From Corynebacterium canis (lineage in GTDB: Bacteria; Actinomycetota; Actinomycetes; Mycobacteriales; Mycobacteriaceae), in assembly GCF_030408595.1 (NCBI RefSeq), contig NZ_CP047080.1, positions 237,831-301,830 on the forward strand: DNA of 64,000 bases. The letters run 5' to 3'. Shown one piece after another: positions 3,579-26,250 of the stretch (positions are counted from its first letter, which is position 1; every line of letters begins with the position of its first letter). Below the pieces are notes generated by a model. It did not search any database, was not told the DNA's origin, and saw only the letters and a program-made list of their open reading frames with translations. The translations under genes and the position numbers were made by a program.

Positions 3579-3735
3579 GTCATACGCGCATGGGCATTGG
3601 GGGTAGTGTACGCGGCAGCTTTTCGGAGGGAATGCTTGTTTTGTCTGGAAATCAACGGAAATAGCGCTGCCGGGGTACCCCTTAAAAGAGGTTTTAGAAG
3701 TGCTGGGGGTTGAAAGGGAAGCATTGCCTAACTAG

Positions 3736-3823: not shown

Positions 3824-4378
3824 GTGGGAAATCAACAGAATGCCGCAACCAGAAACGCGACACGTGAATATTTGGTCGCCGCGGCCATTGGCGTTGCGGG
3901 ATCGGTGATTATTGTCCCCCTGATCTACCTGCAAGTTGGCCTGAGCCTCCTGCACTTCTACCTGGTGGCGGCGGTGCTCGGCTTCTGGGTGCTGCCCTTC
4001 GCCCTTGCCTCGCTGCTGGTGCGGCGTCCCGGGGCGACGCTGATCGCGGCATTGACAATCGGCTTTATCTCCGCATTGACCTCGCCATTCGGTGCCAGCG
4101 CGCTGGGGGCGCTTGCCCTGGAAGGCGTGCTGTTCGAACTCCCATTTGCGGTGCTGTTGTATCGGCGGTGGAGCGCCTGGCAATACGTGATCAGCGTGAT
4201 CCTGCTGTGCAGCTTCCTCGGGTGGTTCGTGCCCCAAGCGGTGGGCAGCGACCAACAATCGACGATCGCCAGCCTGATCTGTGCGCTCATCGCCACCGCC
4301 ACAGGGTTGGTGTTATTGCTGGTCACCTATAGGTTGCATACCAAAGTGCTGGCCGCGGGAGTGCTGCGTAAGCGTTAG
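3824..4378 (+). CDS. ECF transporter S component, YkoE-like
   Basis: 184 residues with five or six hydrophobic helices and little else, the size and shape of an ECF substrate-binding (S) component. It resembles the YkoE group proposed to take up hydroxymethylpyrimidine or thiamine. The GTG start at 3824 has a weak ribosome site (AAAAGAGA). The next gene, starting 6 bases later, supplies the two ATPases and the T component, so the pair forms a whole transporter in the cytoplasmic membrane. Thiamine-type substrate is family inference; no TPP riboswitch is visible upstream. Confidence 0.75.
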   Translation: MGNQQNAATRNATREYLVAAAIGVAGSVIIVPLIYLQVGLSLLHFYLVAAVLGFWVLPFALASLLVRRPGATLIAALTIGFISALTSPFGASALGALALEGVLFELPFAVLLYRRWSAWQYVISVILLCSFLGWFVPQAVGSDQQSTIASLICALIATATGLVLLLVTYRLHTKVLAAGVLRKR

Positions 4379-4384
4379 GGGGCG

Positions 4385-6573: not shown

Positions 6574-8265
6574 ATGGAGCCACTGCGTTATGCGCACTTT
6601 CTTGATGTGCTACTCGCCCACGAAGGCGAAGAAACTTTAGGGATAACCTTTATAGATTCACGAAGTGAGGAGTTTTATCCGTATGGGCAGTTAGTGAAAG
6701 ACGCTGCTGTACTCGCGTCTTACCTCGCAGAATTGGGCGTTCGACGTGGTGACAACGTCATCATCCAAATTGAAGATAACAAGACTCTGGTACAAGCGTT
6801 TTGGGCGATTGCGTGGCTTGGTGCGGTGCCTGTCCCCCTTGGTGTGGCGCGCGATGCGCGGAGTGAACGGCTATTGTATTCCGTGTTTGAGCTCCTCGAT
6901 TCGCCGTGGGTGCTTCACGCCGCAGAGCTCCCGCTTGGGCACGAAAAGATCGGCGATCGTCTCGTGCAATTCGAGGACATTGACGCCCTGCGTGAACGAA
7001 TTGGTGAGCTTTCAACTGTTGCTTTTCCTCCCGTGCAGCTTCGTGGTGAGGAAACCCGAGTCATCCAGTTTTCTTCCGGTTCTACGGGCATGCCTAAAGG
7101 GGTGATCGTAACCGAAACTAATCTACTGGTTGGCTTGCAATCGACGGTTCCACGACGGCCAGCGAAGCTGCAAAACAAGATGCTTAGCTGGATGCCGCTC
7201 ACACACAACATGTCAATGATCGGATTTCTCGTGTACGCGGTGTTTTCTGGATATCCACTTGCGCTGTTGCCGACCAAGTTGTTTGTGATGAATCCGGCGA
7301 GTTGGTTATATGCGATCGATCGGTTCCGCCCGACTATCACCGCTGCGCCCAATTTCGCCTTGAAGCATCTGCTTACCATGCTTCAGGCACGGCCAATTGC
7401 GGCAAATAAGGCGCCAGACTTGTCGTCCCTGCATAAGCTCGTGTGCGCGTCCGAGCCCATCAGCTTGGATTTAGTAAGCCAATTTGAATCCGCGATGGCT
7501 GGCTATGGGTTGCGTAAAAGCATTTTTGTATCGGGATACGGACTTTCCGAAGCGTGCCTCACGGTGGCTATGAGCGAAATATATGAGCCGTTGAAAGCCA
7601 TCACCCTGGATAGGTCGAGAATCGCACCGGGGGCAACGGTCGCAGATATCACGCTTGAGGTTTCTCAGGGCGGAAGTGCATTTGTCAGTGTTGGGCAACC
7701 CGTTCCGAACCTCAAGGTCACGATTTGTGATGAGTCGGATAATGATCTTGCGGAGGGGGTAATAGGCGAAGTGTGTCTTGCGGGCGCTGCAATAACCGAT
7801 GATGCGTTGACTGCACAGGGCAGGCAGAAACACCCTACAACGAGCTACGGCGCACTGAAGACGGGCGATATCGGCACGATTATCGACGGGGAGCTCTATA
7901 TCATCGGCCGCATTAAAGACATAATCTTTATTGGCGGGAAAAACTACTACGGCAATGACTTGGAGCAAAGCATTGAGCAGAAATTCCCTGTTCAATGCGT
8001 TGCCGGTGGGTACACCAACGAAGTGACTGGCACGGAGTCTGTGGCGATATTCCTTGCGCCTAGCCAAACTCCTGTTAATCGGGAAAATGCTGCGCTCACC
8101 GATGCAGAGCGAGATGAGCTGTCGCACCAAGTTCGTTCCACATTAATGAAGGAGCTTGGTATTCCAGTAGACCGGATTTTCTGGGTTGACAGTATTCCCC
8201 GGTCAGCCACCGGCAAAAAGCTGCGGGGCGTGCTGATGTCTAGCCTGATAGAGGTGAAAAACTGA
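6574..8265 (+). CDS. Fatty-acyl-AMP ligase-like adenylating enzyme (starter unit loading)
   Basis: 563 residues, ANL superfamily. Core motif QFSSGSTGMPKG begins at residue 165, the middle motif SWMPLTHNM and the segment PNFALKHLL are typical of fatty-acyl-AMP ligases, and SATGKKLRG near the end holds the catalytic Lys. Such enzymes activate an acid as acyl-AMP and pass it to a carrier protein. The start ATG has a strong AGGAGG site. The stop codon overlaps the NRPS start by one base (TGATG), so the partner is most likely the carrier at the NRPS N-terminus. Salicylate-type specificity (YbtE) looks less likely from the motifs, but the acid is not known. Confidence 0.85.
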   Translation: MEPLRYAHFLDVLLAHEGEETLGITFIDSRSEEFYPYGQLVKDAAVLASYLAELGVRRGDNVIIQIEDNKTLVQAFWAIAWLGAVPVPLGVARDARSERLLYSVFELLDSPWVLHAAELPLGHEKIGDRLVQFEDIDALRERIGELSTVAFPPVQLRGEETRVIQFSSGSTGMPKGVIVTETNLLVGLQSTVPRRPAKLQNKMLSWMPLTHNMSMIGFLVYAVFSGYPLALLPTKLFVMNPASWLYAIDRFRPTITAAPNFALKHLLTMLQARPIAANKAPDLSSLHKLVCASEPISLDLVSQFESAMAGYGLRKSIFVSGYGLSEACLTVAMSEIYEPLKAITLDRSRIAPGATVADITLEVSQGGSAFVSVGQPVPNLKVTICDESDNDLAEGVIGEVCLAGAAITDDALTAQGRQKHPTTSYGALKTGDIGTIIDGELYIIGRIKDIIFIGGKNYYGNDLEQSIEQKFPVQCVAGGYTNEVTGTESVAIFLAPSQTPVNRENAALTDAERDELSHQVRSTLMKELGIPVDRIFWVDSIPRSATGKKLRGVLMSSLIEVKN

Positions 8266-11200
8266 TGAACGTAAGCGTGTCGGCTCGTGCCCTTGCGGAG
8301 AAGGTTCGGCAAATACTCACTGAGGTTTCTGGGGTGGATTTGGATGAGAAAGACTTTGTGCTGAAGAACTCAATTCCACATTCGGTGACTTTATTGCATT
8401 GTCTTCTGGGTATAGAGAAAGAATTCAATATTCAGCTACCTCTTGAAGACATTCGTTATGACTATCGTTTTTCCGAGCTTGTTGATCTAGTCTGCGCGAA
8501 CCTCGACGAGGCGACGGTCCTAGGTGTTGAGCAGGATCCTCAGATGGGAGATGTCTGGGCAGACACGATTCCGCTGAACCAGATACAACTTGCTTACCTG
8601 TTTGGAACAAGCAAAGAGTTTGAGCTGGGCGGAACTGCAACGTATGTGTACTTTGAAGCCGAATACGATGCACCAAAAGAGCAGGTCGCGGAACATTTGG
8701 ACTATTTGGTCTCCCGTCATTCGGCCTTCCACTATGTGCCGGACCTCGAGTCTGGGACGCTTACGCGCACAGAATCTCCACAGGCAGTAATACAAGTTCG
8801 CGATGGCATCGACGAGAGCGATTTGCGCGCGGAGCTCGAAGGCAAAGCGGTTCGATCATTTATCGAAGAGCCTGGTGCAATGCTGGTAGTAGCTGGAGAA
8901 AAGAAAACCAAGCTATTCGCTTATTTTAATATGGTCGTTTTTGATGCCGGTTCCATCTACGTCTTATTAGGCGAATTAGATCGGTTGATTGCTGGGAAGG
9001 AGCTTCCCCCCGTACTTCAGTGCGCGGAGGCAGTGGGGGTAGTGGCAGCTAGGAAGCAACGATTCGATGCTGCGGAGGACTTACGGTACTGGAAGCGTAA
9101 ATTGCGCGATTTCCCAGAGCGACCAAATTCACTCGTGCCGCTGTTTGGAGAAAATGCGCCATCGATGCAGAGGGTTAGTTACCAGTGCTCTCCAGATTTG
9201 GTTAAGACGCTGGAACGAGTAGCTAGTGAGATGGAATGTAGTACATCCGCACTGATCCTCGGCGTGCATACGAGCGTGGTCAGCCGATGGCTGAATCAAC
9301 CCGAAATTCCCTGGAATGTCACGGTAACAGATCGGGTGTTTTTGCCAAATCAACCTTGTCTCGGAGATTTCACGTCTTCGATGCTGATCTCAGGGCGCAG
9401 CGCAGCAGGCTCGAACCTTGCTCAAACGGTAGTCGAAATTAGCGGGGATATTCGAGAGGGTTTGCAGCATCGAGGCGTCGGCGGAGTGGAGTTGTTGCAG
9501 TGGTTGCAAGATTCCACAGAACGACGGCTCGCGCGCTGCCCGCTCGTCTTCACGAGTTATCTTGGAGGAGCTCAACGTAACACCGCGCGTGTAACTCACG
9601 CTTCGTCACGCACAGCACAGGTTGCTCTTGACGTCCAAGTTATGCCGACTGGTGATGGTATTGCTTTGTCCTGGGATGTGGTTGAAGAGTACTTCCCCGC
9701 ATACCAGCGCATGTTTGATTTAGTGCTGCAGCAATTGGAGTCGCTAGGTCGGTTCGAAGCTAGTGCTATGCCGGTGCCAGCGGTGGACGTGCAAGCTTGC
9801 AAGCACGATCGTCGATACAACGCCACGAAGCGGGAATACCCCGACGTCACCCTAGTGGATCTCGTGCGCGACTCTGTGGAACGCGCACCGAATGCGGTCG
9901 CGGTGATTGATGTTGCTGGGTTCGAAGAGGCCATGACGTATACCCAGTTATGGGAAGCATCTGGGAGTATTGCCCAAGAACTCGAATTACACGGTATGTG
10001 CGTAGGCGATCGTGTTATTGTTCGCTATACACGAACCGCCCAGGATATTGTCAATGTGCTTGCCGTGGTGCGAGCAGGTGGCGCATATATTCCAGTTGAT
10101 AGTCAATGGCCGGAGGTGCGTAGGCAACACATCCTGACACAAGCGGCGGCGTTTGCGGAGCTCTATGGTACCGCGATCACTTACACCGGTTCGCATCCGC
10201 AAGAGACAGCACGCTTGCGCCGAGGTGGTGTGCAGCCAGAGGATCTTGCTTACATAATTTTTACCTCTGGAACAACTGGTGCGCCGAAGGGTGTGGAGAC
10301 CAGCCATCGAGCGGTAGTAAATACGATACATAGCTTGATTCAGGATTTGCAGCTCACCTCCGAGCATGCCTTCCCAGGTCTTTCAGCACTAAGTTTCGAC
10401 TTGTCCGTATTTGACGTCTTTGCGGCGTTTGCGGTAGGTGGACAGCTTGCCATAATTCACGATAACCGTGATGTGGACGAGATCATTGCGTGTTTAGAGC
10501 ACCTTGACTCTATCGGTAGGCAGATTGTTTGGAATTCAGCGCCAGCATTGCTTGAATTGCTACTCCTGCGCTTAGCTTCAGATACAAAGATTCAAAGTGT
10601 GCGTGTGGTGATGCTGAGCGGGGACCGGATTGGAACGAATGCTGTACGCAATACTCGTAAGCATTTTCCGCAGGCTCGTTTTCTAAGCCTTGGAGGTGCC
10701 ACCGAGGCGGCAATTTGGTCCATCTATATGGACATTGGTGATGATTCCCTAGACAACGAAACACCTTATGGGTTCGCGATGCCGAACCAAAGCATGCACG
10801 TGCTTGGTTACGATCATCAACCGGCCCCGATCGGAGTTGTCGGCGATATCTATATCGGTGGCGTGGGCTTGGCGGTCTGTTATAGTGGCTCACCTGAGCT
10901 GACTCAAGCTGCCTTTATGACCATTGATGGTCAGCGTAGGTACCGCACTGGGGATCGCGGGTACGTTTCAGAACGCGGCTATATCTGCTTTGCCGGTCGT
11001 GAGGATAATCAAGTGAAAATCCAAGGTTTTCGCGTTGAGCTCGATGAGATTCCTCAAGCCGCGAAGGCGTCGTTGGTGGCTCGGGATTGTGTGGCCATGG
11101 CAGTAACCCACCGTAGCGGCCAAATTGTGCTCGCTGCCGCCTTTGTGCCGACAACAAATGAAATCGGGGAATCGGAATTCCAGAAGGCGTTGTCGCAGCA

Positions 11201-14162
11201 GCTACCGAGGTATATGGTCCCAACATTGGTGCTGCGTCTTGACGCGCTGCCAACCACTGCGAACGGAAAGCTCGATTACAAGGAGATACGCAGTCGTTTC
11301 GAAGCTGCCTCGCAGGCGAACGCGCAGCACAATGCAGAAACCGTGTTTCATGCTCAACAGGTCGAAGTTGCGCAAATCTGGGCCACCGTTCTTGGCGTGC
11401 CGGTGGGTGCACTGGCGCCAAATCGCACCTTTTTCGAAGCAGGCGGAGATTCTCTGAAGTTCCAAGAGATGTTGACGTTGTTACGCCAGGACCTCGGTTT
11501 CCGCGCGTCGTTTCGAGACCTTATTGTGCATCCCACGATCGAGCGTATTGCGCAGATGTTAGAGGGCTCAGAAGAGATAAGGCCCGTAGCCCAGCAGGAA
11601 TCAGAATTCCAGTTAGCAGTTCAAGACTACGGGGAAGATCCGTACGCACCGTTCCCGTTGACTGATATGCAAATGGCCTATTTCATTGGCCGTGATGAAG
11701 GCTTTGCTTTGGGCGGTGTGAGCGAGCACTATTATGTGGAAACGCTTGCAAACGTGGATTTAGCGCGCCTAGAACGAGCGTTGAACAAGCTTATCGCTCG
11801 CCACGGTATGCTTCGTGCGGTACTACTCGCGGACGCGACGCAACGGATACTCCCCACCGTGCCGTACTATCACGTCAAGGTAACAGATCTGCGGCCAGTG
11901 GATGATGCCGCAAAAACCGCCGCGCTGCAAGGACTTCGCGACAGGCTCAGCCACCAACTTTTTGATGTACACCTCTGGCCCCTGTTCGCTCTAGAGGCGG
12001 CGAGACTCGATGACAGCATGTATCGATTGTTCTTTAGCGTGGATATGATCATCGGTGACGGGATGAGTCAGCGGTTGTTTATTCAAGAACTCAATGCCTT
12101 GTACGAGGGCGTCGAACTTCCAGAGCTCAATGCATCGTTCCGCGATTATGTTATTGCAGATACCCAGCGGCGCGTCCACGGGTGGACTGGTAATCGGGAA
12201 ATCCTTGATATTACTCAAGAGCTTGTTTCGTACCCAGCGGGTAATTTCCTACCCCACTTGCAGGCATCGGCCGAGGTAAGTCAGGTACGCATGCGACGCG
12301 CCGCAGATATTTTGGACGCTGCAACGATGGCTGGTTTGCGGCTTCGTGCTGCGGAGCAGGGCGTTTCTGTGAACACATTGTTCTTAGGTGCGTACATGGC
12401 AGCGCTAGGGTTGTGGGCGACTACCGAACGCGTCGGTGTCAATGTCACTACCTTTAACCGGCGTGGCGAAGTGGGCGAGCACCACGGCGTATTTGGGGAT
12501 TTCACCGGCTTGGTATTGCTGTCTGCTGATGCGATTGAGGCTCAGCGTCCGACCGAATTCTTGCCACGGTTGCATAATTTGATGTTGTGTCATCTTGCAG
12601 CAGACTATGCAGGGGTGAAGGCGGTTACCTCTCTTGCCGCTTCCGCTGGTCTGGTGGGCGATGCGGTGGCTCCGTTCGTTTTTACTTCGCTGTTGTTCGA
12701 CGTCCCAAAGGAAGAGCACTTAGGTCCGAGTGTTGCCTCAGCTAACGCGCTCGGTGAGGTAGTGTATGCAATCTCACAGACACCGCAAGTGCTTATTGAC
12801 AACCAGTTGCTGCAAAGAGGCGACGAGGTCAGCGTAGCCTGGGATTACGTACATGAAGCTTTCCCTTCGGGCATGGTCGAAGAGATGTTTGAACGCTACG
12901 TTGCCTGCGTGCGGGCGTTGGCTGCTAATCCACATGGTGAGTACCCGCCTGTCGAGCCGACGTGCGCCGCACAGTTAGGCAAATACGGGGCCCACTCAGC
13001 TGCTTATCGACGTCCCGTTCCTACCGTTACCACGCCAGCTGCAGGTGATTTGACCGTTGATGATGGAATCTTGCAGGTGGTCACGGAGATGGTTTCCACG
13101 CGCTGCGCTGGTTCGGAAAGTATCCCGCAGGATGTGAATCTCTTGGAGCATGGGCTCGATTCCCTCGGCTTTGTTCAATTGATTCGTGATGTGGAGCAGC
13201 TTTACCACGTGCAACTGCCCTTGGCATCGGCATTGGCACAGCCGACGACCGCTCGTATCGCAGATTTGGTGAGTGATGCTCGCGGCGAAGGTGGTACCGC
13301 AGGCCAAAGCCATCGCATGCAATTGTTGCGGGCGCGGCGGGGAGACGGCGGCGCAGTTGACGACTATGTGGTGTGTGTTCATGGCGGTTTCGGCTCAATA
13401 GATGTTTACGGTGAACTTGCTCTCCATGCCCCAGATAATGCTGAGGTCTGGGGATTGGCATATCCGGGATTGAAATACAACTATCCACAAGCGACAGACT
13501 TGAGGCAATTAGCAGCAGATTATGCGGAACTGATCCGCCAAGAGCTTCCCGCTAACGCCAAAGTAACAATAGTTGGCTGGAGCCTCGGTGGTTCGATAGC
13601 GCATCAGCTAGCGGGAGAATTGCAAGAGGCGTTTGATGTTTCAGTGGCGTTGCTTGATTCGCTTGCTCCAGGTATTCAAGTAGAGACGGCATTGGATTCC
13701 ACGGAGCGTGGACAAGCATTGTTTGAAAACGTTGCTGCGCGAGTGGGCATAGTCCTACCAAAGAAAGATTTCACCGATGCTGGTTGGTGGGACGCATTAG
13801 TGGATAACTGCCAAGCTGTGGGCAAAGAATCCGCATTCGTATACGAGGTAGCCAGGGAGATCTCTCCGTCGCTGGTTGCTGATCTCGGCCTTGCGGGGCA
13901 ATCCGTGACTATCCGAGAATTCAATGCGTTGCGTAGCCTGCTGGCTGCGCGAAATACATTTGTTCCGGCAAAGAGAATTGACAGTGCAATTCTGGTACTT
14001 CCTCGTGATGGGGAGGCACGCAGTTCCAAAGGCTGGGAACGTTATATCGGATCGGTGCAGACCATAGACTGCGAAGGAAATCACTATTCCATGCTTTTGG
14101 GTGAAGGTGCCATTTCGACCGCAGGTCTTATCTGGGACTTAGGGAAAGGCCGAGGAAATTGA
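8265..14162 (+). CDS. Non-ribosomal peptide synthetase, HMWP2-like with C-terminal thioesterase
   Basis: 1965 residues. Order: carrier (1-85, Ser40 in IPHSVTLL); cyclization domain Cy1 (about 100-490, motif N222xxxxD227xxS230); adenylation domain (about 530-1030, TSGTTGAPKG from residue 667); carrier (Ser1063 in GGDSL); Cy2 (about 1120-1560, intact D1260xxxxD1265xxS1268); carrier (Ser1633 in GLDSL); thioesterase (GWSLGG, Ser1773, probable Asp1798 and His1940). Specificity positions read D712, L713, F716, N757, M783, S785, L809, I817, W818, close to the known Cys code. HMWP2 of yersiniabactin has the same order without the thioesterase, and its single A domain loads several carriers. I infer an acyl-thiazoline-thiazoline acid as product; it is not shown. 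Confidence 0.93.
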   Translation: MNVSVSARALAEKVRQILTEVSGVDLDEKDFVLKNSIPHSVTLLHCLLGIEKEFNIQLPLEDIRYDYRFSELVDLVCANLDEATVLGVEQDPQMGDVWADTIPLNQIQLAYLFGTSKEFELGGTATYVYFEAEYDAPKEQVAEHLDYLVSRHSAFHYVPDLESGTLTRTESPQAVIQVRDGIDESDLRAELEGKAVRSFIEEPGAMLVVAGEKKTKLFAYFNMVVFDAGSIYVLLGELDRLIAGKELPPVLQCAEAVGVVAARKQRFDAAEDLRYWKRKLRDFPERPNSLVPLFGENAPSMQRVSYQCSPDLVKTLERVASEMECSTSALILGVHTSVVSRWLNQPEIPWNVTVTDRVFLPNQPCLGDFTSSMLISGRSAAGSNLAQTVVEISGDIREGLQHRGVGGVELLQWLQDSTERRLARCPLVFTSYLGGAQRNTARVTHASSRTAQVALDVQVMPTGDGIALSWDVVEEYFPAYQRMFDLVLQQLESLGRFEASAMPVPAVDVQACKHDRRYNATKREYPDVTLVDLVRDSVERAPNAVAVIDVAGFEEAMTYTQLWEASGSIAQELELHGMCVGDRVIVRYTRTAQDIVNVLAVVRAGGAYIPVDSQWPEVRRQHILTQAAAFAELYGTAITYTGSHPQETARLRRGGVQPEDLAYIIFTSGTTGAPKGVETSHRAVVNTIHSLIQDLQLTSEHAFPGLSALSFDLSVFDVFAAFAVGGQLAIIHDNRDVDEIIACLEHLDSIGRQIVWNSAPALLELLLLRLASDTKIQSVRVVMLSGDRIGTNAVRNTRKHFPQARFLSLGGATEAAIWSIYMDIGDDSLDNETPYGFAMPNQSMHVLGYDHQPAPIGVVGDIYIGGVGLAVCYSGSPELTQAAFMTIDGQRRYRTGDRGYVSERGYICFAGREDNQVKIQGFRVELDEIPQAAKASLVARDCVAMAVTHRSGQIVLAAAFVPTTNEIGESEFQKALSQQLPRYMVPTLVLRLDALPTTANGKLDYKEIRSRFEAASQANAQHNAETVFHAQQVEVAQIWATVLGVPVGALAPNRTFFEAGGDSLKFQEMLTLLRQDLGFRASFRDLIVHPTIERIAQMLEGSEEIRPVAQQESEFQLAVQDYGEDPYAPFPLTDMQMAYFIGRDEGFALGGVSEHYYVETLANVDLARLERALNKLIARHGMLRAVLLADATQRILPTVPYYHVKVTDLRPVDDAAKTAALQGLRDRLSHQLFDVHLWPLFALEAARLDDSMYRLFFSVDMIIGDGMSQRLFIQELNALYEGVELPELNASFRDYVIADTQRRVHGWTGNREILDITQELVSYPAGNFLPHLQASAEVSQVRMRRAADILDAATMAGLRLRAAEQGVSVNTLFLGAYMAALGLWATTERVGVNVTTFNRRGEVGEHHGVFGDFTGLVLLSADAIEAQRPTEFLPRLHNLMLCHLAADYAGVKAVTSLAASAGLVGDAVAPFVFTSLLFDVPKEEHLGPSVASANALGEVVYAISQTPQVLIDNQLLQRGDEVSVAWDYVHEAFPSGMVEEMFERYVACVRALAANPHGEYPPVEPTCAAQLGKYGAHSAAYRRPVPTVTTPAAGDLTVDDGILQVVTEMVSTRCAGSESIPQDVNLLEHGLDSLGFVQLIRDVEQLYHVQLPLASALAQPTTARIADLVSDARGEGGTAGQSHRMQLLRARRGDGGAVDDYVVCVHGGFGSIDVYGELALHAPDNAEVWGLAYPGLKYNYPQATDLRQLAADYAELIRQELPANAKVTIVGWSLGGSIAHQLAGELQEAFDVSVALLDSLAPGIQVETALDSTERGQALFENVAARVGIVLPKKDFTDAGWWDALVDNCQAVGKESAFVYEVAREISPSLVADLGLAGQSVTIREFNALRSLLAARNTFVPAKRIDSAILVLPRDGEARSSKGWERYIGSVQTIDCEGNHYSMLLGEGAISTAGLIWDLGKGRGN

Positions 14163-15205
14163 ATGCAGCACAGCAACGCAGCATATTGGTGATCGGTGGA
14201 ACCGGCATCACTGGAAGAAAAGTCGAACGATACCTTGGACAGTATCTTCAGCAACCGGCACGAATCGACGTGTCATCGCGGCACGCCAGTAAACTGGCCA
14301 ATCACCGGATTCTCAATCCAGAAGACCGTGCAGCAAGCGTGGCAACCATTTCTGACTATGATTTGGCTATCATATGTGCTGGTCCCTTTGAAAAACTGGG
14401 TGCGTCAATCCATGAACTGTGTGTTGAAGCCGGAACAAACTGCCTTGATGTAAATGATTCCATCGATGCGGCGCGGGTTATTGCAGAGCTTCACGAGTCC
14501 GCGATGGCGAAAAATGTACGTGTCATAACCGGTTGTGGTCTGAATCCTGGAATTTCGACCGCAATGCTGTGCCGCTGGCGGGAATATAACATCGTTGATG
14601 TCGTAGAACGCTTGCGTAGTGAAGCTGGGGAAGCTGGCGCAACAGCGATGCATTCCCTGCTGCTGACGCTTGCCAATGGGCACCGCTATCTAGCTCACGG
14701 TGCGGAACTCCACAGCTCGCAACCGGATATTGAAGCTGGAGCAGCCGGTTACGAAAGCCCCGATATTGATGGTGCTCGACGAATATGGCCAGGCGTACAG
14801 GGCTTTCAATACCGTGTGCAGTTTGCGGGTCTACCCGAAAATAGTGTGCGTACCCTGAGCTCCCGAAAGATTTATAAACGACCTCTGGTGCAGGTAGGTC
14901 TTTCCAAGCTGCTCGCTAAGCTGGCGCGAACTCGAGCCTCGAAAACGACCGTACCCTCGGCCTCAGTGTTTGAAATCGTGGCTCGCGATAGCGGTGGGGG
15001 TACGTACCGTCAATTGCTTCGCGGTGCGGGTTCGTACGAATTGACCGCATTTGCAGCTGCCCAATGCGCCGTGTGGATGTTGCGCAATGAAAGGGAGTTA
15101 CAAGGCGGGGTGCACAGTATCGATCGTGTCGAAGGTTTGGATGACTATTTACTTACTCAGCTGCAGCAATGTGCACTGGCAACTATTGAAGAAACACGGA
15201 AGTGA
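14159..15205 (+). CDS. Saccharopine-dehydrogenase-like NAD(P)-dependent reductase
   Basis: 348 residues. The N-terminus ILVIGGTGITGRKV is a dinucleotide-binding Rossmann motif, and the rest matches the saccharopine dehydrogenase superfamily. The start is TTG at 14159, overlapping the NRPS stop as TTGA, with GAGGAAA just ahead. Coupled translation with the NRPS suggests it reduces an enzyme-bound or released intermediate, for example a thiazoline to a thiazolidine as Irp3/YbtU does with a different fold family. That role is inference; a stand-alone amino-acid dehydrogenase is the alternative. Confidence 0.75.
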   Translation: MNAAQQRSILVIGGTGITGRKVERYLGQYLQQPARIDVSSRHASKLANHRILNPEDRAASVATISDYDLAIICAGPFEKLGASIHELCVEAGTNCLDVNDSIDAARVIAELHESAMAKNVRVITGCGLNPGISTAMLCRWREYNIVDVVERLRSEAGEAGATAMHSLLLTLANGHRYLAHGAELHSSQPDIEAGAAGYESPDIDGARRIWPGVQGFQYRVQFAGLPENSVRTLSSRKIYKRPLVQVGLSKLLAKLARTRASKTTVPSASVFEIVARDSGGGTYRQLLRGAGSYELTAFAAAQCAVWMLRNERELQGGVHSIDRVEGLDDYLLTQLQQCALATIEETRK

Positions 15206-15214
15206 GGACATGCG

Positions 15215-16177
15215 ATGACAATTCCAGTATTAGTAAGGGATTTGCATAAAACCTATAAAGCGGCATCGAAAAATGTCCCGGCCAAACATGTGTTGCGTGG
15301 TTTGTCTTTTCAGATCGATCGTTCCGGAGTGTTTACCTTTTTGGGGCACAATGGAGCGGGGAAAACCACGCTGATAAAGATCCTTTCCACATTGCTTTCC
15401 GGTGATAGTGGGGAAGCGATTATTTGCGGATTCGATGTGGCCAAGCAACCGGCAAAAGTGCGCGAAATCATCGCTTTGACTGGCCAATACGCCGCCGTTG
15501 ATGAACAGCTTACCGGCCGCGAGAACATTGAGTTCTTTGGTAGGTTGCGGGGATTGCGAAAAAAGGACGCGGCAGCTCGCGCAACGGAACTTTTAGGGTC
15601 CTTTGAGTTGGCGCACGCTGGGGATCAACCCGTCAGCTCTTATTCCGGCGGTATGCGACGCCGGCTTGATATCTCCGTTTCCCTAGTTACGCCGCCCAAA
15701 GTGTTGTTTTTGGATGAGCCGAGTACTGGGCTTGACCCAGTCAGCCGGAACGAATTGTGGGCATTGATTCGGCGGTTGACGGAAACCGGAATGACGATCA
15801 TTTTGACCACTCAATACCTTGAGGAAGCCGACGCGCTTTCTGACCGTATTTTTGTACTCAAAGATGGTGTTGTGGCGCTTGAGGGAACTCCTACCGAGCT
15901 CCGGCACCAACTCGGGGAATCCGTGTTGCGGCTGCGTTTCGATGGTGACCAGGCGGCGTTAGCTGCATGCGACTACCTGCGCGCGCTGGGCGTGGATGTT
16001 GGAATTTCATCGGATAATCCGAGCATCTTGGTGGTTTACTCCCGCGAATTGATGGCACCGGAGGTTATCCTTTCGCGCCTAGCGGAAGCGGATCAAAGGC
16101 CAGCAGAGTTTTCGCTGGCGGCCCCCACCCTTGATGAGGTGTTTATCCAGCTCAATCGGGTGGAGGAAGAACAATGA
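15215..16177 (+). CDS. ABC exporter ATPase, DrrA-like
   Basis: 320 residues: Walker A GHNGAGKTT, signature SYSGGMRRRLD, Walker B VLFLDEPSTGLD and H-loop TTQYLEEAD, the layout of the daunorubicin-resistance ATPase family. The C-terminal 100 residues carry the extra domain of that family. Two permeases follow at once, the first through a 4-base ATGA overlap, so the three form a drug or natural-product exporter in the cell membrane. Here it most likely exports the NRPS product. Confidence 0.92.
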   Translation: MTIPVLVRDLHKTYKAASKNVPAKHVLRGLSFQIDRSGVFTFLGHNGAGKTTLIKILSTLLSGDSGEAIICGFDVAKQPAKVREIIALTGQYAAVDEQLTGRENIEFFGRLRGLRKKDAAARATELLGSFELAHAGDQPVSSYSGGMRRRLDISVSLVTPPKVLFLDEPSTGLDPVSRNELWALIRRLTETGMTIILTTQYLEEADALSDRIFVLKDGVVALEGTPTELRHQLGESVLRLRFDGDQAALAACDYLRALGVDVGISSDNPSILVVYSRELMAPEVILSRLAEADQRPAEFSLAAPTLDEVFIQLNRVEEEQ

Positions 16178-16929
16178 CGCAATCACCAGCTATCGCGGCG
16201 GAGATTGCTGTTCATTACCGCCGAGGGTTGACGCTGTTGAGCCGGAACAAGGCGTCACTCGTTTCCGCCTTTGTGGTACCTACCTTTTTCTTCTTGTGCC
16301 TGTATGGGGTGTTTCATCATGCTGCAGATCAGGCTGGTATGGACTACACGGCGGTTGTGTTGGGGGGATGCTTGTTCCAAGGGGCCATGTTTTCCGCAGC
16401 GGCATCTGCAATGGTGGTCGCCCGAGACATCGACGATGGATTTGTGATGCGCGTGGCGGCGACCTCTCGTTCGCTGGTGCCATACGCCGTGGGTCGACTG
16501 CTCGTTGATTGCACTCGGGCGCTCGCTTCCAGCGTTGTTCTTATCTTGATTGCTATGCTGCTGGACTACCGTCCCACTGTGGCCGAGTTTGCGGTGGCGA
16601 TTGGTGTGACCCTGCTGGTTTCGCTGGTGTTGGCTTTGCTGGCGGATTCCATTGTGTTTGTGAGCAAACGGCCCGTAGCCGTCGCGAGCGGGATCCAATC
16701 ATTTGAAATGCTTGCGCTGCTGTATTCCACCGCGTTTGTGCCTGCGGACGCTTTGAGCGGAACAACAAAAACTCTGGTCACATATTCCCCAGTGAGTCCG
16801 CTCGTGGAGCTTATCCGATACGAAGACATGGGGAGCGGGCGCGTATGGACGGCGATCGCGTACGCATCAGTTGCGCTGTTGGTGGGAACCGTGGTGCTGA
16901 TTCAAGGCACCAAGAAGAAGGAGTGGTAG
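16174..16929 (+). CDS. ABC exporter permease, DrrB-like (first)
   Basis: 251 residues with six predicted membrane helices and the ABC-2 permease pattern. The start overlaps the ATPase stop by 4 bases. The gene ends 4 bases before a second, different permease, so the exporter is probably a heterodimer of permeases plus two copies of the ATPase. Substrate inferred from context to be the cluster product. Confidence 0.88.
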   Translation: MTQSPAIAAEIAVHYRRGLTLLSRNKASLVSAFVVPTFFFLCLYGVFHHAADQAGMDYTAVVLGGCLFQGAMFSAAASAMVVARDIDDGFVMRVAATSRSLVPYAVGRLLVDCTRALASSVVLILIAMLLDYRPTVAEFAVAIGVTLLVSLVLALLADSIVFVSKRPVAVASGIQSFEMLALLYSTAFVPADALSGTTKTLVTYSPVSPLVELIRYEDMGSGRVWTAIAYASVALLVGTVVLIQGTKKKEW

Positions 16930-16933
16930 GACG

Positions 16934-17677
16934 ATGCTGACGGTTACTTGGGTTCACGCATTACGAATCTTGCGCACCTGGTTCCGCAACGTAGGCGACA
17001 TTATCTTCTTAGTAGTAGTGCCGGTTGCGCAGCTGTATATTATCGATGCGATCTTTGGCAATTTGGTAGACCTATTCACCGCCTCCTTTAGTATTGATAA
17101 GGCCACGGTTCTTACCGCAGTTTCGTGGGCATTCATTTTGGTTATCACCTCCGGAGGCACGATAGTTTCAGAACGGCGGCGTGGGCTACACGACAGGTTT
17201 TGGGTACAACCACAAGGTTTTTACCCCGCGCTCCTAGGGCGTTGGTTAGCCGAATTCCTACGCGCCACGCTTTCCGTGGCTATCGTTTGCATTGCTGCAA
17301 CTCTGTTCCTTGAAGCAGACCTTGTGCAAGCTTTCGGTTGGAAGTTTGTTCCAGTGCTGTTACTGGTATGTTTTGCCAGCTCGGGTATTGCCACTGTCAT
17401 TGGGTTTAGCGTTAAGGACACGCAAGGCGCGGTAGCCTTTGTGCCACTGATCGTGGCGGCAATGTTTCTGAATACCGCTATGATGCCCGCAGACTCGTTT
17501 GGCGCGGTGCTAAAACACATTGTTGAATACACGCCGATTTCTGCGATTGTTCAAGTGCTCTTGGATTCAGAGTCGCCGAGGAATTGGGCGCTGTTTGTGG
17601 CCTGGGTAGGCGGATTCATAATCCTAGCGTTTTCTTCCATAGCAATGAGCGGTAAGGGGCAGCGATGGGCACATTAA
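16934..17677 (+). CDS. ABC exporter permease, DrrC-like (second)
   Basis: 247 residues, six membrane helices, ABC-2 type. The cytoplasmic stretch SERRRGLHDRF after the second helix pair is the coupling region seen in this family. The end overlaps the methyltransferase start by 13 bases. It should pair with the preceding permease. Confidence 0.88.
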   Translation: MLTVTWVHALRILRTWFRNVGDIIFLVVVPVAQLYIIDAIFGNLVDLFTASFSIDKATVLTAVSWAFILVITSGGTIVSERRRGLHDRFWVQPQGFYPALLGRWLAEFLRATLSVAIVCIAATLFLEADLVQAFGWKFVPVLLLVCFASSGIATVIGFSVKDTQGAVAFVPLIVAAMFLNTAMMPADSFGAVLKHIVEYTPISAIVQVLLDSESPRNWALFVAWVGGFIILAFSSIAMSGKGQRWAH

Positions 17678-18351
17678 CCAATTGGCTTTCAAATACGAGC
17701 CTGTATTTGAAGTACTATGAGCGCAGCATACACCCGCGGTTTATAAGGAAGTATGCGCGTCAAGAACTTGGACATGAACAGATTTACCAGCGGTTGATCC
17801 AATTGGCAGGGGATCGTCGATGTGACAAGGAACAAGGAAGAATTGGCGATTTAGCTTGTGGAACCGGCTGGTATTCACGGGCATTGGCCCAAGATCCGCA
17901 GCGGCAGCAATGGCGAATCGTTGGATTGGATCTTTCGCCTAGGGCTGTGGCTTTTGCGAGGCAGAAAGCAAAGGAAATCCTTTCTCCGGCTGAGGTAGCT
18001 AGGGTGCGGTACGAGATTGCTGATCTGGCAAAAGGCGATCTCACTGCGTACGGCGAATTCGATGAACTTTGGTTATGCGGTGCGATTCATCAAATCCCAG
18101 ATGCGGCAGAAGCATTGCGTCAAGTCTCTGCGATGCTTGCGGCGCACGGGAATGTAATGGTGCAAACATTTCTCGATCATCCTGATATCGATGAAGCGAT
18201 TGATCGTGCAGCGCTCGCCAAGTTCGGGCACAGGATCTTTGATAGCGACGAATGGGCAGAGTTACTCGCAGGGGCTGGCTTTGCGCCAGTCGCAGCGCAG
18301 CAGTTCGGGCTCGTACATCTCACCGTGTTGGGAAAGAAGGCAGGCGCATGA
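17665..18351 (+). CDS. SAM-dependent methyltransferase of the cluster
   Basis: 228 residues, class I fold. Motif I is GDLACGTGWYSRAL, the acidic strand is IVGLDLSP, and motif IV-like ELWLCGAIHQI follows. Its start lies inside the upstream permease and its stop overlaps the next ABC gene as ATGA, so it is part of the operon. A tailoring N-, O- or C-methylation of the NRPS product is the simplest role; the acceptor cannot be read from the sequence. Confidence 0.8.
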   Translation: MGTLTNWLSNTSLYLKYYERSIHPRFIRKYARQELGHEQIYQRLIQLAGDRRCDKEQGRIGDLACGTGWYSRALAQDPQRQQWRIVGLDLSPRAVAFARQKAKEILSPAEVARVRYEIADLAKGDLTAYGEFDELWLCGAIHQIPDAAEALRQVSAMLAAHGNVMVQTFLDHPDIDEAIDRAALAKFGHRIFDSDEWAELLAGAGFAPVAAQQFGLVHLTVLGKKAGA

Positions 18352-20024
18352 CAATTTTCAATGAACTCAGGGGCAAGCTGGGGATACTGATTGGGTTATC
18401 GCTGGTTGTGGCCGTTCTGACCGTGGTCCCTTTGGTGGCCATGCTCTGGCTGGCGGGGGATCCCAGTCGCCGTAATACTGCGGTGATTATCCTGTTGGCG
18501 GCGGTAATTCTTCGCCATTTCCTGCACGGTGCGACCGGATTGTATTCGCATCGCGTGGATAACGATTTTCAGTTGAGTATTCGGCGGAAAATGGTGCGTC
18601 ATTTGCGCAATGTGCCGCTTGGCTGGATCGAACATCGACAAAGCCAGGGCATAGTCGCGCTGGTGCAGCGGAGCGTTTCCAGCGTGCATCACCTGATCGG
18701 GCATGCCCTGCACGATACTGTGCAAGCTCTGGTGGTTCCGCTGCTGTCCTTGGGCTTTCTGTTTGCTATGAGTCCACGCATGGCTGGGATAGCCTTGGTG
18801 CCGATCTTGGGTGTGGGAATCACCATGTCGATCATGCTTTCGGTGGGCAAGCAGCGGCAGCAGCGTCACGATGACACTTTGACCGAATTCACTGGCGCGG
18901 TGGTGGAACGCGCCCACGGAGCGGCGTCGTTTGCGCTTTACGACGAAGACGAAGCCGCCGCAGGAAGGCTGAAACGCGCTGGTGGAGAGTATATTGACGC
19001 TTGGAATTCCTGGTCCAAGCAATCCTCTTGGTACCTGAGCCTTATCGATCTATTTGTGGCACCGATCACGATTATGTTGCTGATGGTCTCGGCGGCAGAT
19101 CTTGAATCGGGGTTGGTGCAACTCACCGCCGGCCTCGTGCTTGGCTTGGGCATTGCGGCACCGTTGCTGAATTTTGCGGCGAGTTCGCAAGCGTTATCGA
19201 GTGGCATCGCGGCGGCGAAAGAGATCGAAGAAGTCCTTGCCGTCGAACCTTTGCCCGTGCCCGAATCGCCCGCCACGCTGCCGCAAAGCGCATCGGGCAG
19301 GGTGGAATTCAAACAGGTGACCTTTTCCTACCCGACCGCCCCCGATGGCGATCCAGCGATAGCCGACTTTTCGTTGGTGTTGGAACCGGGCACCACAACC
19401 GCTCTGGTGGGGGCGTCCGGGAGCGGCAAAACGACGCTGGTCCGGCTGCTTGCGCGGTTTCACGACGTCGATAAGGGCGGCGTATTTATCGACGGCGTGG
19501 ACGTACGCGAGCTGGGTATGCGCGACGTGTATCAAAACTTGGCAATCGTGTTTCAAGAGCCGCAATTGCTTTCCGTTTCTATTAGGGACAATCTGCGTCT
19601 CGGTGCGCGGGGCGAACCCAGCGACGAACAATTGTTTGAAGCCGCGGAAAAGGCATGCATTGCGGATTACATTCGCGGACTAGAACATGGGCTCGAAAGC
19701 GTGATCGGTGTGGACGCCAACCCCAGCGGTGGACAGGCGCAGCGTCTCAGTATTGCGCGGGCATTCCTGCAGCAGCCGCGGGTAATCATCCTCGATGAAG
19801 CGACGGCGTTCACCGACCCAGAATCGCAAGCCGAATTGCAGCAAGCGTTGAGCAATTTTGCCAAGGGGCGGACCTGCATTGTTATTGCGCACCGCCTCCG
19901 CACGATCGCCGGAGCTGATCAAATAGCTGTTCTAGAAGCCGGTAGGCTCGCCGAGATCGGCACACACGATGACCTGCTGCACGCAGGCGGAATCTACACG
20001 GACCTGTGGGAGAAACTGGCATGA
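18348..20024 (+). CDS. Half-size ABC transporter, YbtP/IrtA-like (first subunit)
   Basis: 558 residues: six-helix membrane domain to about residue 300, then an ATPase with Walker A GASGSGKTT, signature PSGGQAQRLS, Walker B VIILDEATAF and H-loop IAHRLRT. The ATG at 18348 was chosen because it overlaps the methyltransferase stop as ATGA; the frame is open 32 codons further up without reason. Fused membrane-ATPase pairs of this exporter fold act as ferric-siderophore importers in yersiniabactin (YbtPQ) and mycobactin (IrtAB) systems. No siderophore-reductase domain is present. Import is inferred from the neighbours; export is possible. Confidence 0.85.
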   Translation: MTIFNELRGKLGILIGLSLVVAVLTVVPLVAMLWLAGDPSRRNTAVIILLAAVILRHFLHGATGLYSHRVDNDFQLSIRRKMVRHLRNVPLGWIEHRQSQGIVALVQRSVSSVHHLIGHALHDTVQALVVPLLSLGFLFAMSPRMAGIALVPILGVGITMSIMLSVGKQRQQRHDDTLTEFTGAVVERAHGAASFALYDEDEAAAGRLKRAGGEYIDAWNSWSKQSSWYLSLIDLFVAPITIMLLMVSAADLESGLVQLTAGLVLGLGIAAPLLNFAASSQALSSGIAAAKEIEEVLAVEPLPVPESPATLPQSASGRVEFKQVTFSYPTAPDGDPAIADFSLVLEPGTTTALVGASGSGKTTLVRLLARFHDVDKGGVFIDGVDVRELGMRDVYQNLAIVFQEPQLLSVSIRDNLRLGARGEPSDEQLFEAAEKACIADYIRGLEHGLESVIGVDANPSGGQAQRLSIARAFLQQPRVIILDEATAFTDPESQAELQQALSNFAKGRTCIVIAHRLRTIAGADQIAVLEAGRLAEIGTHDDLLHAGGIYTDLWEKLA

Positions 20025-21766
20025 TACGGGCACTCTTTCGATTACTGGAAAGCCTTGGTGATGCGGGCAAGACCGCACGAGGCAATGTGGTTGCGCTGTT
20101 TATCACTGCGGCGCTCGGAGCCGTGTGCGAAGGGTTGGCGTTTATCGCGCTGATTCCGTTGTTCACGCGGGTGCGTGCCGGGGAAGACGTCGGCCAGCTC
20201 ATGATCCTTTTGCTGTGCTTGCTTGGCGGGTTCATCGTGTTTCACACCGCCTCCGGGCAAATCGGTCGTCGAGCCAGCACAGGGATCCTCGCCTCATTGA
20301 TTCGTATATTCGAAGGTAGGCTGCGCACATTGCCGGTGGGGTACTTTGGGCCCACCACAACGGGTCGCTTTATTGAGCTCGCGGGGTCTGGAATCAGTTT
20401 TTCCGGTGCGGTGGCCTCGACCGTGATTCGGCCGGTAGTTGGAGCAATTGTGACACCCCTGGTACTGGTGTGCGGATTGCTGTACTTTATGCCGCTGGTT
20501 GCCGTGGTGTGTATCTGCGGTCTGCCAGTCCTGTACTGGGCATATCGAGCGGTGGCCCGCGCAGGGAATGTGTCTTCGAAAGAATTCGAGGCTGCCAGTG
20601 CCACAACCTCGACTCGTTTGACAGAGTTTGTGCGCGCGCAAGCCGCTATCCGAGCCGCCGAAGTACGCGAATCCGGAGACGGATCTATCGCCGACGAAGT
20701 AATGGATGACGCGCTACGCGCCCAGCACCAGGCGTTTGGCAATGCAACGGTAACCCAAGGCACAGCGATCGGCAGGATGACTACCCTTGCCCAAGCCGTC
20801 ATGGTAGCTGGCGTGATCGCTGCGGCGGTTACCGATGTGCAATCGGCGCAATTCTTGGCGCTAGCGGTGGTTTTGACTCGTATTATCGATCCGATCATTG
20901 GTGCGGGAACGCTTCAAGGCGGATTTGGGCAAGCCGCCTCTACGCTAGAACAACTCGAGGAATTAGCGGCAGTACCAGCGCTCGCTGAGCCCGAAGACGG
21001 CTCGGTGGCAGATATTGCGCGCGGCGCCGACGGCAGCACCATAGCGTTGCAGCACGTGGATTTCGGATATGGGGAGAAACAGATACTCCACGATATTTCA
21101 TTTACCGCGGAACCTAGCACGGTGACCGCTATCGTCGGCCCTTCTGGGTGCGGGAAAACCACGGTGTTAAAGCTTCTGGCACGTTTCGTTGATCCTTGGG
21201 ACGGCGAGGTTACCTTAAACGGTGTGCCGTACCCGCGCTGCGGAAGCGGTGAAGTGCGTAAACACATCGGTGCGGTATTCCAAGACACCTATCTGCCGGG
21301 GGCGAAGCTCGCCGATGCGCTGCGAATCGCTGACCCGCAAGCCAGCGAGGCCGAATGCCGAACCGCACTGCATCAAGCAATGCTTGGCGACGAGTTGAGG
21401 TTGGAACAAAACATCGGAGAGGGTGGGTCGGCGCTATCCGGAGGCGAACGGCAACGCGTGTGCATAGCCCGTGCCCTCCTCGCCGACCGGCCGGTTATCC
21501 TATTCGATGAGCCCACCGCATCGCTGGATTCTTACGCGGAACGCGGGGTGATGAACCTCATTGCGGATCTCCGCGCCGGCGGAAAAACCATCATCATGGT
21601 GGCGAACAAGCTATCTACCGTGGTGGAGGCCGACCAGATTGTAGTGCTCGATGGGGATGGGCGAATCGCCGACTGCGGTAGGCACGACGAACTGATGGTG
21701 CGTTGTCAGAGTTACTGTCGCGGCGTTGAAAAAGAACAACAAACAAGTAATTGGAGGCTGGTATAA
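20021..21766 (+). CDS. Half-size ABC transporter, YbtQ/IrtB-like (second subunit)
   Basis: 581 residues, same layout as its neighbour: membrane domain to about 310, Walker A GPSGCGKTT, signature LSGGERQRV, Walker B VILFDEPTASLD. The H-loop reads VANKLST with Asn529 where His is expected, so one of the two ATP sites of the heterodimer may be weak. The ATG at 20021 overlaps the previous stop as ATGA. It ends the cluster; the next gene starts 28 bases later and belongs to an unrelated secreted family. Confidence 0.85.
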   Translation: MIRALFRLLESLGDAGKTARGNVVALFITAALGAVCEGLAFIALIPLFTRVRAGEDVGQLMILLLCLLGGFIVFHTASGQIGRRASTGILASLIRIFEGRLRTLPVGYFGPTTTGRFIELAGSGISFSGAVASTVIRPVVGAIVTPLVLVCGLLYFMPLVAVVCICGLPVLYWAYRAVARAGNVSSKEFEAASATTSTRLTEFVRAQAAIRAAEVRESGDGSIADEVMDDALRAQHQAFGNATVTQGTAIGRMTTLAQAVMVAGVIAAAVTDVQSAQFLALAVVLTRIIDPIIGAGTLQGGFGQAASTLEQLEELAAVPALAEPEDGSVADIARGADGSTIALQHVDFGYGEKQILHDISFTAEPSTVTAIVGPSGCGKTTVLKLLARFVDPWDGEVTLNGVPYPRCGSGEVRKHIGAVFQDTYLPGAKLADALRIADPQASEAECRTALHQAMLGDELRLEQNIGEGGSALSGGERQRVCIARALLADRPVILFDEPTASLDSYAERGVMNLIADLRAGGKTIIMVANKLSTVVEADQIVVLDGDGRIADCGRHDELMVRCQSYCRGVEKEQQTSNWRLV

Positions 21767-26244: not shown

Positions 26245-26250
26245 AACGAT
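26245..26250. repeat. Target-site duplication AACGAT (right copy)
   Basis: Second copy of the 6-bp direct repeat. Its last base (26250) is also the last base of the fic stop codon on the minus strand. Confidence 0.75.

Follow-up and report, generated by a model that had tools for sequence, protein, structure and literature searches.

A candidate thiazoline siderophore operon in Corynebacterium canis and related islands that keep its IrtAB-like transporter genes

The yersiniabactin (ybt) nonribosomal peptide synthetase (NRPS) HMWP2 has the domain order carrier–cyclization (Cy)–adenylation (A)–peptidyl carrier protein (PCP)–Cy–PCP, in which one A domain serves two PCPs, and acts beside the polyketide synthase (PKS) HMWP1, a salicylate ligase, a YbtU-family reductase and the paired ATP-binding cassette (ABC) transporter YbtPQ. 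The pyochelin system PchDEFG joins a starter ligase to two Cy modules, a reductase, methylation and release by a thioesterase (TE), with no PKS. We analyzed an operon in a 64,000-nucleotide stretch of Corynebacterium canis DNA (contig NZ_CP047080.1, positions 237,831 to 301,830; here called the window) that resembles ybt in the domain order of its NRPS, in the predicted sharing of one A domain by two PCPs and in its paired ABC transporter. It departs from ybt in having no HMWP1 partner and an NRPS that ends in its own TE, a ligase resembling fatty acyl-AMP ligases (FAALs) instead of a salicylate ligase, a reductase outside the YbtU family, and additional DrrABC and energy-coupling factor (ECF) transporters. 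With pyochelin it has in common the starter ligase, two Cy modules, reductase, methylation function, TE release and lack of a PKS, and unlike pyochelin it encodes one NRPS protein, a stand-alone methyltransferase and another reductase fold, with no salicylate genes recognized in the operon. We read the locus, with a probability of about 0.7, as an iron-siderophore operon of the acyl- or aryl-thiazoline type that follows pyochelin and yersiniabactin logic with a different cap, uses IrtAB import and is subject to wide piracy; we infer the starter acid, the number of rings, every chemical step, the metal and the direction of transport from sequence.

An initial annotation of the window described nine closely packed plus-strand genes, and all nine predicted open reading frames (ORFs) are present on that strand at 6574–21766, where neighboring genes overlap by 1, 4, 4, 13, 4 and 4 bases or are separated by 9 and 4 bases once the starts of the ABC pair are reset to ATGA overlaps at 18348 and 20021 (the mechanical starts, 18252 and 20006, lie earlier). 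The genes it named are there as described, including a methyltransferase and the DrrABC exporter genes, which Pfam resolves into a DrrA-like ATPase and two ABC-2 permeases (Table 1), and it missed two ECF-transporter genes upstream (3824–6493). We assign these to the same operon, for a total of eleven genes, because they hold the same place in eight relatives with a whole NRPS. Pfam finds an ECF S component (PF09819) and a double ATPase, and the CbiQ-type membrane part (PF02361) is matched in the relative G004 only, at 23.4 bits and below the cut-off of 25 (genomes and loci carry our working numbers). The cluster is not a chance assembly, since its gene set and order recur in other Corynebacterium genomes.

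The earlier description of an HMWP2-like NRPS ending in a thioesterase without a PKS partner is supported by Pfam content (AMP-binding, two Condensation, two PP-binding and a Thioesterase domain), by alignment with the bacillamide synthetase BmdB and by alignment of homologues, which together give the HMWP2-type order through the second PCP; no PKS domain was found by Pfam among the operon proteins scanned. Both Pfam PP-binding stretches exclude the carrier at the N-terminus, whose Ser40 lies in ...IPHSVTL... and which was assigned by alignment. Across four aligned NRPSs, those of the window, locus L020 (74% identity), G013 (38%) and G004 (40%), invariant residues include the carrier serine Ser40, the PCP serines Ser1063 and Ser1633, the Cy dyads T430/D456 and T1474/D1512 with a glutamine at +2 (458 and 1514), and S1773/D1798/H1940 of the TE, a triad assigned by motif. 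Passages of PMC9547227 describe the Cy Thr-Asp dyad and helper glutamine as important for cyclodehydration and the DXXXXD aspartates as structural. In Cy2 the DxxxxDxxS motif is intact in all four enzymes. Alignment of the A domain with the Cy-A-PCP chain of BmdB, an enzyme that prefers cysteine, shows agreement at 8 of the 10 positions of the specificity code (D-L-F-N-M-S-L-I-W-K here, D-L-Y-N-L-S-L-I-W-K in BmdB), which points to a cysteine-type code.

The acyl-AMP ligase of the initial annotation is predicted to be FAAL-like on homology and on a characteristic insertion, and differs at the FAAL HD motif, which reads HN in all four ligase homologues. Its best solved matches are the McyG ligase (179 bits) and FAAL-type domains (156–174 bits; FAAL 3pbk, 174), and the salicylate- and dihydroxybenzoate-AMP ligases listed score 42–55 bits. 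The insertion, between YGLSE and V(S/A)xG, measures 41–44 residues in 4/4 homologues (44 in the window, with VSVG) and aligns with solved FAALs 3pbk and 3kxw; McyG is without it. Against NCBIfam PRK09192 the ligase scores 246 bits, so that this curated family (cut-off 600) is not reached. These features also bear on whether the ligase might load an aryl acid, salicylate-like or phenylpropanoid, that is made or taken up elsewhere, giving an ordinary phenolic thiazoline siderophore in partial overlap with our own interpretation. HN in place of HD is found in aryl-acid ligases, and McyG, the best solved match, takes phenylpropanoid substrates. Equibactin offers a precedent, as passages of PMC3672683 report that its producer needed added salicylate in defined medium. 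The much lower scores of the salicylate- and dihydroxybenzoate-AMP ligases and the insertion common to solved FAALs and absent from McyG argue the other way, and we consider this variant less likely than not.

The reductase matches no NCBIfam family and a single Pfam family, PF03435. Its AlphaFold model (predicted local distance difference test 76.6, seven sequences) gives fold matches led, among the 50 listed, by carboxyspermidine, lysine and saccharopine dehydrogenases (template-modelling (TM) score 0.57–0.65), the best being 8deb (E 7.3e-16, TM 0.63). No thiazoline reductase of the YbtU/PchG type is named among those 50, and none was found by Pfam or NCBIfam; that this protein acts as a thiazoline reductase is our guess from gene position.

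The proposed YbtPQ/IrtAB-like ABC pair is likewise recovered, with IrtA and IrtB scoring above YbtP and YbtQ. Pfam assigns ABC_membrane and ABC_tran to the first half and ABC_tran only, plus weaker ATPase families, to the second. Considering the bacterial chains among the 60 best matches listed, the first half scores 302 bits with IrtA, 229 with 6p6i_A, taken as YbtP because its complex also holds YbtQ, and 215 with MsbA, and the second scores 192 bits with IrtB and 160 with YbtQ; eukaryotic two-domain transporters outrank IrtA/IrtB by summed domains. The pair therefore appears closest to the mycobactin importer IrtA/IrtB, closer than to YbtP/Q, and its predicted role is import of a ferric siderophore. 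The siderophore-interaction domain of IrtA is missing from the first half, which carries ABC domains only by Pfam and whose match begins at residue 334 of full-length IrtA (6tej_A). No gene for a binding protein was recognized in the operon, and none is known for IrtAB and YbtPQ either.

In the pathway that we propose, the FAAL-like ligase would adenylate a carboxylic acid, fatty or aryl-alkyl, and transfer it to the carrier at the N-terminus of the NRPS. Cysteine would be loaded onto both PCPs by the one A domain, and condensation and cyclodehydration by Cy1 and Cy2 would give an R-thiazoline-thiazoline thioester. One C=N bond may then be converted by the NADP-dependent reductase to give a thiazolidine, which the methyltransferase may N-methylate, and the thioesterase would release the acid without a PKS. 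Export of the product would fall to DrrABC, which might also recycle its iron-free form, IrtA/IrtB would import the metal complex, and the ECF transporter would be accessory. The operon is complete and probably functional, of siderophore type and built on known enzymology.

A first NRPS search of 101 genomes returned two full-length relatives besides the window, in G013 and G004. All eleven genes occur at 69–94% identity in L020 (G244, the metagenome-assembled genome Corynebacterium sp. MAG S30M_Sa_49), and the complete set in the same order is found there and in G004, G278, G279, G104, G105 and G206; G013 has the ligase, NRPS, reductase, DrrABC, methyltransferase and ECF genes in place in a cluster without IrtAB, and another ABC ATPase ORF follows that cluster (20993–21724 of the joined L022–L023 stretch). 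When 242 genomes of the genus were searched with a reductase profile, 22 scored at least 65 bits, the window's genome included, of which 9 have a whole NRPS and 21 have clustered IrtA/IrtB, the exception being G013. Searching the 242 genomes with G004 IrtA identified 27 carriers at 94% identity or more; the window's genome and G244 come next at 43%, and other IrtA-like genes reach at most 42%. Outside the genus no orthologues were found at E 1e-20: across the order (397 genomes, 85 genera) the window's genome was the only match, and 396 genomes of the phylum gave 19 other matches, weak (76–88 bits) and to the N-terminal NADP part only.

We compared nine of the 27 carriers, omitting G278 because it duplicates G279. 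In 34 of the 36 pairs irtAB DNA is more similar than rpoB, the exceptions being G215–G160 and G104–G105, and from this excess we conclude that the island has moved between species. Across these pairs irtAB is 95.5–99.8% identical where rpoB is 72.7–99.1% identical, and G206 and G104 share 97.9% in irtAB vs 74.5% in rpoB, with NRPS genes 98.7% identical. The complete identity (100%) of the G278 and G279 clusters was dropped as a sign of transfer, as their rpoB segments are identical too. GC content is 0.50–0.58 at 6–30 kb vs 0.56–0.66 across the remaining window, a drop common for acquired DNA. A search for plasmid carriage gave no NRPS match and irtAB matches of only 1%.

Of the 27 carriers of G004-type IrtA, six have complete islands (G004, G278, G279, G206, G104 and G105) and 21 lack the NRPS, with the ligase wholly lost or at best half kept. 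We count about 13 distinct deletion structures among these 21 (Table 1), some of which may be successive steps of one loss. The G167 island ends at a contig edge inside the reductase, and for it the absence of the NRPS rests on a whole-genome search. This search (G004 NRPS, E 1e-20) found remnants of the island gene in G201 and G109 only and zero matches in G214 and G225; the remaining matches are partial, at 24–48% identity, as would be expected of other NRPS and ligase genes, so that no NRPS of this type was found outside the island in the 21 genomes. IrtA and IrtB contain no internal stops in 27/27 carriers (for IrtA, from residue 100 onward in the longest ORF). Ratios of nonsynonymous to synonymous substitution (dN/dS) are alike in complete and reduced islands, at 0.191/0.198 for IrtA, 0.258/0.251 for IrtB and 0.169/0.146 for DrrA (12 complete vs 209 reduced pairs, 100 for DrrA, excluding those with dS ≤ 0.01), a weak test because of that exclusion and because pairs share their history before the losses. 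In-frame deletion junctions were considered as a sign of selected fusion proteins and rejected, with 3/8 in frame (G201, G215/G160 and G057), about what chance gives.

To examine metal regulation, we scanned each locus with a matrix of 11 C. diphtheriae DtxR sites, 7 known and 4 predicted, taken from passages of PMC524172. In 26 of the 27 G004-type islands the best score of the locus (12.3–24.0 bits) falls at the start of the first retained gene or no more than 700 bases ahead of it; the 27th, G167, meets a contig end and has no upstream sequence. Many boxes overlap the nominal gene start because the earliest possible codons were used as starts, and many are related by descent and hence non-independent. 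In the G004 genome a search with the DtxR-like pattern gave 5 matches vs 0 in the control, and of these the box of the island alone is free of mismatches. Seven late-stage islands (G050, G025, G060, G214, G237, G127 and G225) have boxes that differ from those of complete islands in sequence and distance, so the importer there may be under other iron-controlled promoters. The aligned position in L020/G244 scores 13.9 bits, reached by 14 of 566 scanned segments of its locus, and the G013 score of 11.5 bits is reached by 28 of 666. Upstream of the G013 cluster lies a perfect palindrome, TTATCATTTATGATAA (L022 5163–5178, G013:C1:1417163-1417178), the sole mismatch-free copy in that genome. For the operon copy in the window itself, regulation by iron is suggested by kinship.

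Several observations weigh against an iron siderophore or against its piracy. The proposed thiazoline metallophore is favored by the Cy-type NRPS with its TE and by the DtxR boxes in relatives, and it is weakened by Cy1, where the first Asp of DxxxxDxxS is replaced in all four aligned NRPSs (N/N/A/N); formation of both rings is plausible, the first ring being less sure for want of this residue. None of the operon proteins was recognized as providing a phenolate, catechol or hydroxamate group, so that an alkyl-thiazoline acid whose starter carries no donor would chelate Fe(III) only weakly. The window's DtxR-like site is weak, its 10.1 bits being equaled by 42 of 786 segments of 700 bases in the locus; the matrix alone detects it, as the window has no match to the DtxR consensus even with 3 mismatches allowed, and the DtxR-like pattern is found 9 times in the window's genome vs 5 in the control, never at the operon. 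Such a weak box, together with the different palindrome upstream of G013, would suit a metallophore for zinc or copper, softer metals that fit phenol-free thiazolines. In transport anatomy the closest described system is the mpt/sid island of Mycobacterium avium subsp. paratuberculosis (MAP), which is zinc-regulated. According to passages of PMC4298942, starvation for zinc but not for iron induces its mptABC via FurB, and mptDEF also rises under zinc limitation; this kinship leaves a non-iron metal some weight. The alternative is improbable in view of the strong DtxR-like boxes of the G004-type islands and of a search for Zur-like sites that found none close to where the operon begins (two matches with 3 mismatches in the window, both intragenic, chance mean 1.13).

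Piracy of the siderophore meets further difficulties. G013 has the synthesis genes yet no clustered IrtAB, with a 36% identical IrtA-like gene elsewhere in its genome, and in G143 and G116 numerous further NRPS genes, which match this one in part at 33–40% or more and at up to 329 bits, might make something related. Retention of IrtA is built into our count because it begins from an IrtA search, a condition that does not extend to IrtB or the box. DrrA is kept in 15 of the 21 NRPS-minus islands, which counts against piracy because a pure pirate has no need of DrrA export. The same retention would be expected if the product were an iron-regulated antibiotic lipopeptide and DrrABC and the IrtAB-like pair were self-protection exporters kept as immunity by non-producers; immunity is another origin of transporter-only loci, and export is within the range of both transporter types. 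The most reduced islands, however, keep only IrtAB, whose nearest solved bacterial relatives among the 60 best listed are importers, and they still stand behind a DtxR-like box, leaving an antibiotic with little probability.

Within the iron-siderophore interpretation, we advance tentatively, at somewhat short of even odds, that a phenol-free, acyl-capped thiazoline or thiazolidine siderophore outside the usual chelator classes serves as a public good among many Corynebacterium species, encoded on a mobile island whose biosynthetic half is repeatedly lost and whose irtAB genes are iron-controlled, with a differing box in seven genomes. It would represent an uncharacterized siderophore class expected to escape genome mining by chelator genes. 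According to passages of PMC12971057, clusters missed by the antiSMASH metallophore rules are mostly ones that contain no chelator genes, and the tandem-Cy rule given there would not apply because the Cy domains here are non-adjacent. The same source mentions an earlier transporter-only case in Bordetella petrii, and parts of PMC11296517 report that nasal Corynebacterium are mostly non-producers of siderophores, using those of Staphylococcus aureus. With its many structurally distinct losses, the island would be a natural experiment on siderophore piracy, and its repeated stripping towards the importer is, in our view, the more interesting part of the result.

Table 1. Genes and regulatory site of the operon (positions in the window) and structures of islands without the NRPS (numbers are breakpoints in the named proteins)
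Feature	Position	Strand	Basis or carrier genomes
Weak DtxR-box-like site AAAGGGAAGCATTGCCTAA upstream of operon	3713..3731	+	10.1 bits, third best of 39982 positions
ECF-type transporter S component (P0011)	3824..4378	+	GTG start; PF09819 ABC_cobalt 5.2e-17
Fused ECF ATPase-ATPase with C-terminal membrane part (P0012)	4385..6493	+	GTG start; two ABC_tran stretches, 2.6e-47
Acyl-AMP ligase, FAAL-like (P0001)	6574..8265	+	Pfam AMP-binding; nearest solved relatives McyG ligase, FAALs
NRPS, carrier-Cy-A-PCP-Cy-PCP-TE (P0002)	8265..14162	+	Pfam, BmdB alignment, motifs kept in four homologues
NADP-binding reductase, saccharopine/carboxyspermidine dehydrogenase fold (P0003)	14159..15205	+	TTG start; PF03435 (Sacchrp_dh_NADP) 3.2e-06
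DrrA-like ABC ATPase (P0004)	15215..16177	+	TIGR01188 9e-89, 297.7 bits (cut-off 312.45, not reached); PF13732 DrrA1-3_C
DrrB/C-like ABC-2 permease (P0005)	16174..16929	+	PF01061 1.1e-16
DrrB/C-like ABC-2 permease (P0006)	16934..17677	+	PF01061 1.5e-12
S-adenosylmethionine-dependent methyltransferase (P0007)	17665..18351	+	PF13489 2e-14
IrtA-like ABC transporter half without IrtA N-terminal domain (P0008)	18348..20024	+	IrtA 302 bits; ATGA overlap
IrtB-like ABC transporter half (P0009)	20021..21766	+	IrtB 192 bits; ATGA overlap
Deletion, ligase 55 to NRPS 1896			G201
Deletion, ligase 40 to NRPS 2053			G109
Deletion, ligase 90 to reductase 88			G215, G160
Deletion, ECF 78 to reductase 190			G264, G052
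Deletion, ligase 110, then remnants			G238
Deletion, ligase 113 to reductase 297			G057
Deletion, ligase 313 to reductase 300			G055, G034, G164, G143
Reduced island, reductase 319 onward			G050
Reduced island, reductase 365 onward			G025
Deletion, ECF 42 to methyltransferase			G116
Reduced island, DrrC and methyltransferase remnants only			G214, G225
Reduced island, methyltransferase remnants only			G237, G127
Reduced island, irtAB alone			G060

Downstream of the operon, the window encodes, at 23673–25807, an IS-like transposase with an integrase core and a Mu-transposase C-terminal domain and, after it, an ORF without a Pfam match that may be its helper, and beyond these a Fic-domain protein with a SoFic-like C-terminus on the minus strand (26250–27383). 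A cutinase-like secreted protein (21795–22658) and a second one 60% identical to it (27652–28515) flank this transposase region, and one cutinase-like protein (51%) directly follows the L020 cluster. A second, separate NRPS cluster is present elsewhere in the window's genome (G000:C1:605001-645000; L026, L027). It includes a further AMP-binding ligase and DtxR-like boxes at C1:610220 and 617970, and its DrrA/B/C-like genes share 46, 29 and 29% identity with those of the window.

The view that this arrangement is absent from described corynebacterial siderophores agrees with the open-licence literature searched, in which we found no description of it in a comparison that left the yersiniabactin-like C. 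diphtheriae cluster outside. That cluster, reportedly described by Kunkle and Schmitt in 2003, is the main gap in the claim. For other corynebacterial NRPS and siderophore clusters, the arrangement is not described in the available passages of PMC12188740, PMC3219685, PMC3022926, PMC10486106, PMC11271431 and PMC12542688. The C. diphtheriae NRPS gene DIP2161 is listed with a predicted DtxR box in passages of PMC524172, and the lsaBGC island GCF-50, as presented in parts of PMC10210951, may be this island or another C. jeikeium NRPS cluster.

Mycobactin IrtAB supplies the nearest solved bacterial relatives of both transporter halves among the 60 best matches listed, and unlike IrtA the first half has no N-terminal siderophore-interaction domain. 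Micacocidin and massiliachelin differ in that an iterative PKS makes their alkylphenol starter, where no PKS is present here. They are alike in being thiazoline siderophores, and PMC10291242 and PMC6604713 each mention a fatty acyl-AMP ligase once. Equibactin (eqbA-N), in the passages available of PMC3672683, shares a mobile element, a thiazoline siderophore locus without a salicylate synthase and, as a prediction for the operon here, a DtxR-like repressor, and differs in having three PCPs on two NRPS proteins, a salicylate-AMP ligase, a YbtU-like reductase and, in EqbG, a thioesterase whose Ser is replaced. The MAP island LSP14 (mptABC/mptDEF/sid), as covered by passages of PMC4298942, differs in its zinc/FurB regulation, in an MbtB-like NRPS with a thioester reductase, and in a major facilitator superfamily transporter (sidG), with no DrrABC in the rows examined. 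It resembles this operon in combining IrtAB-like and cobalt-type ECF transporters with an NRPS on an acquired island, and the wider zinc-induced region places the methyltransferase MAP3738c beside sidG and includes fadD28 (MAP3752).

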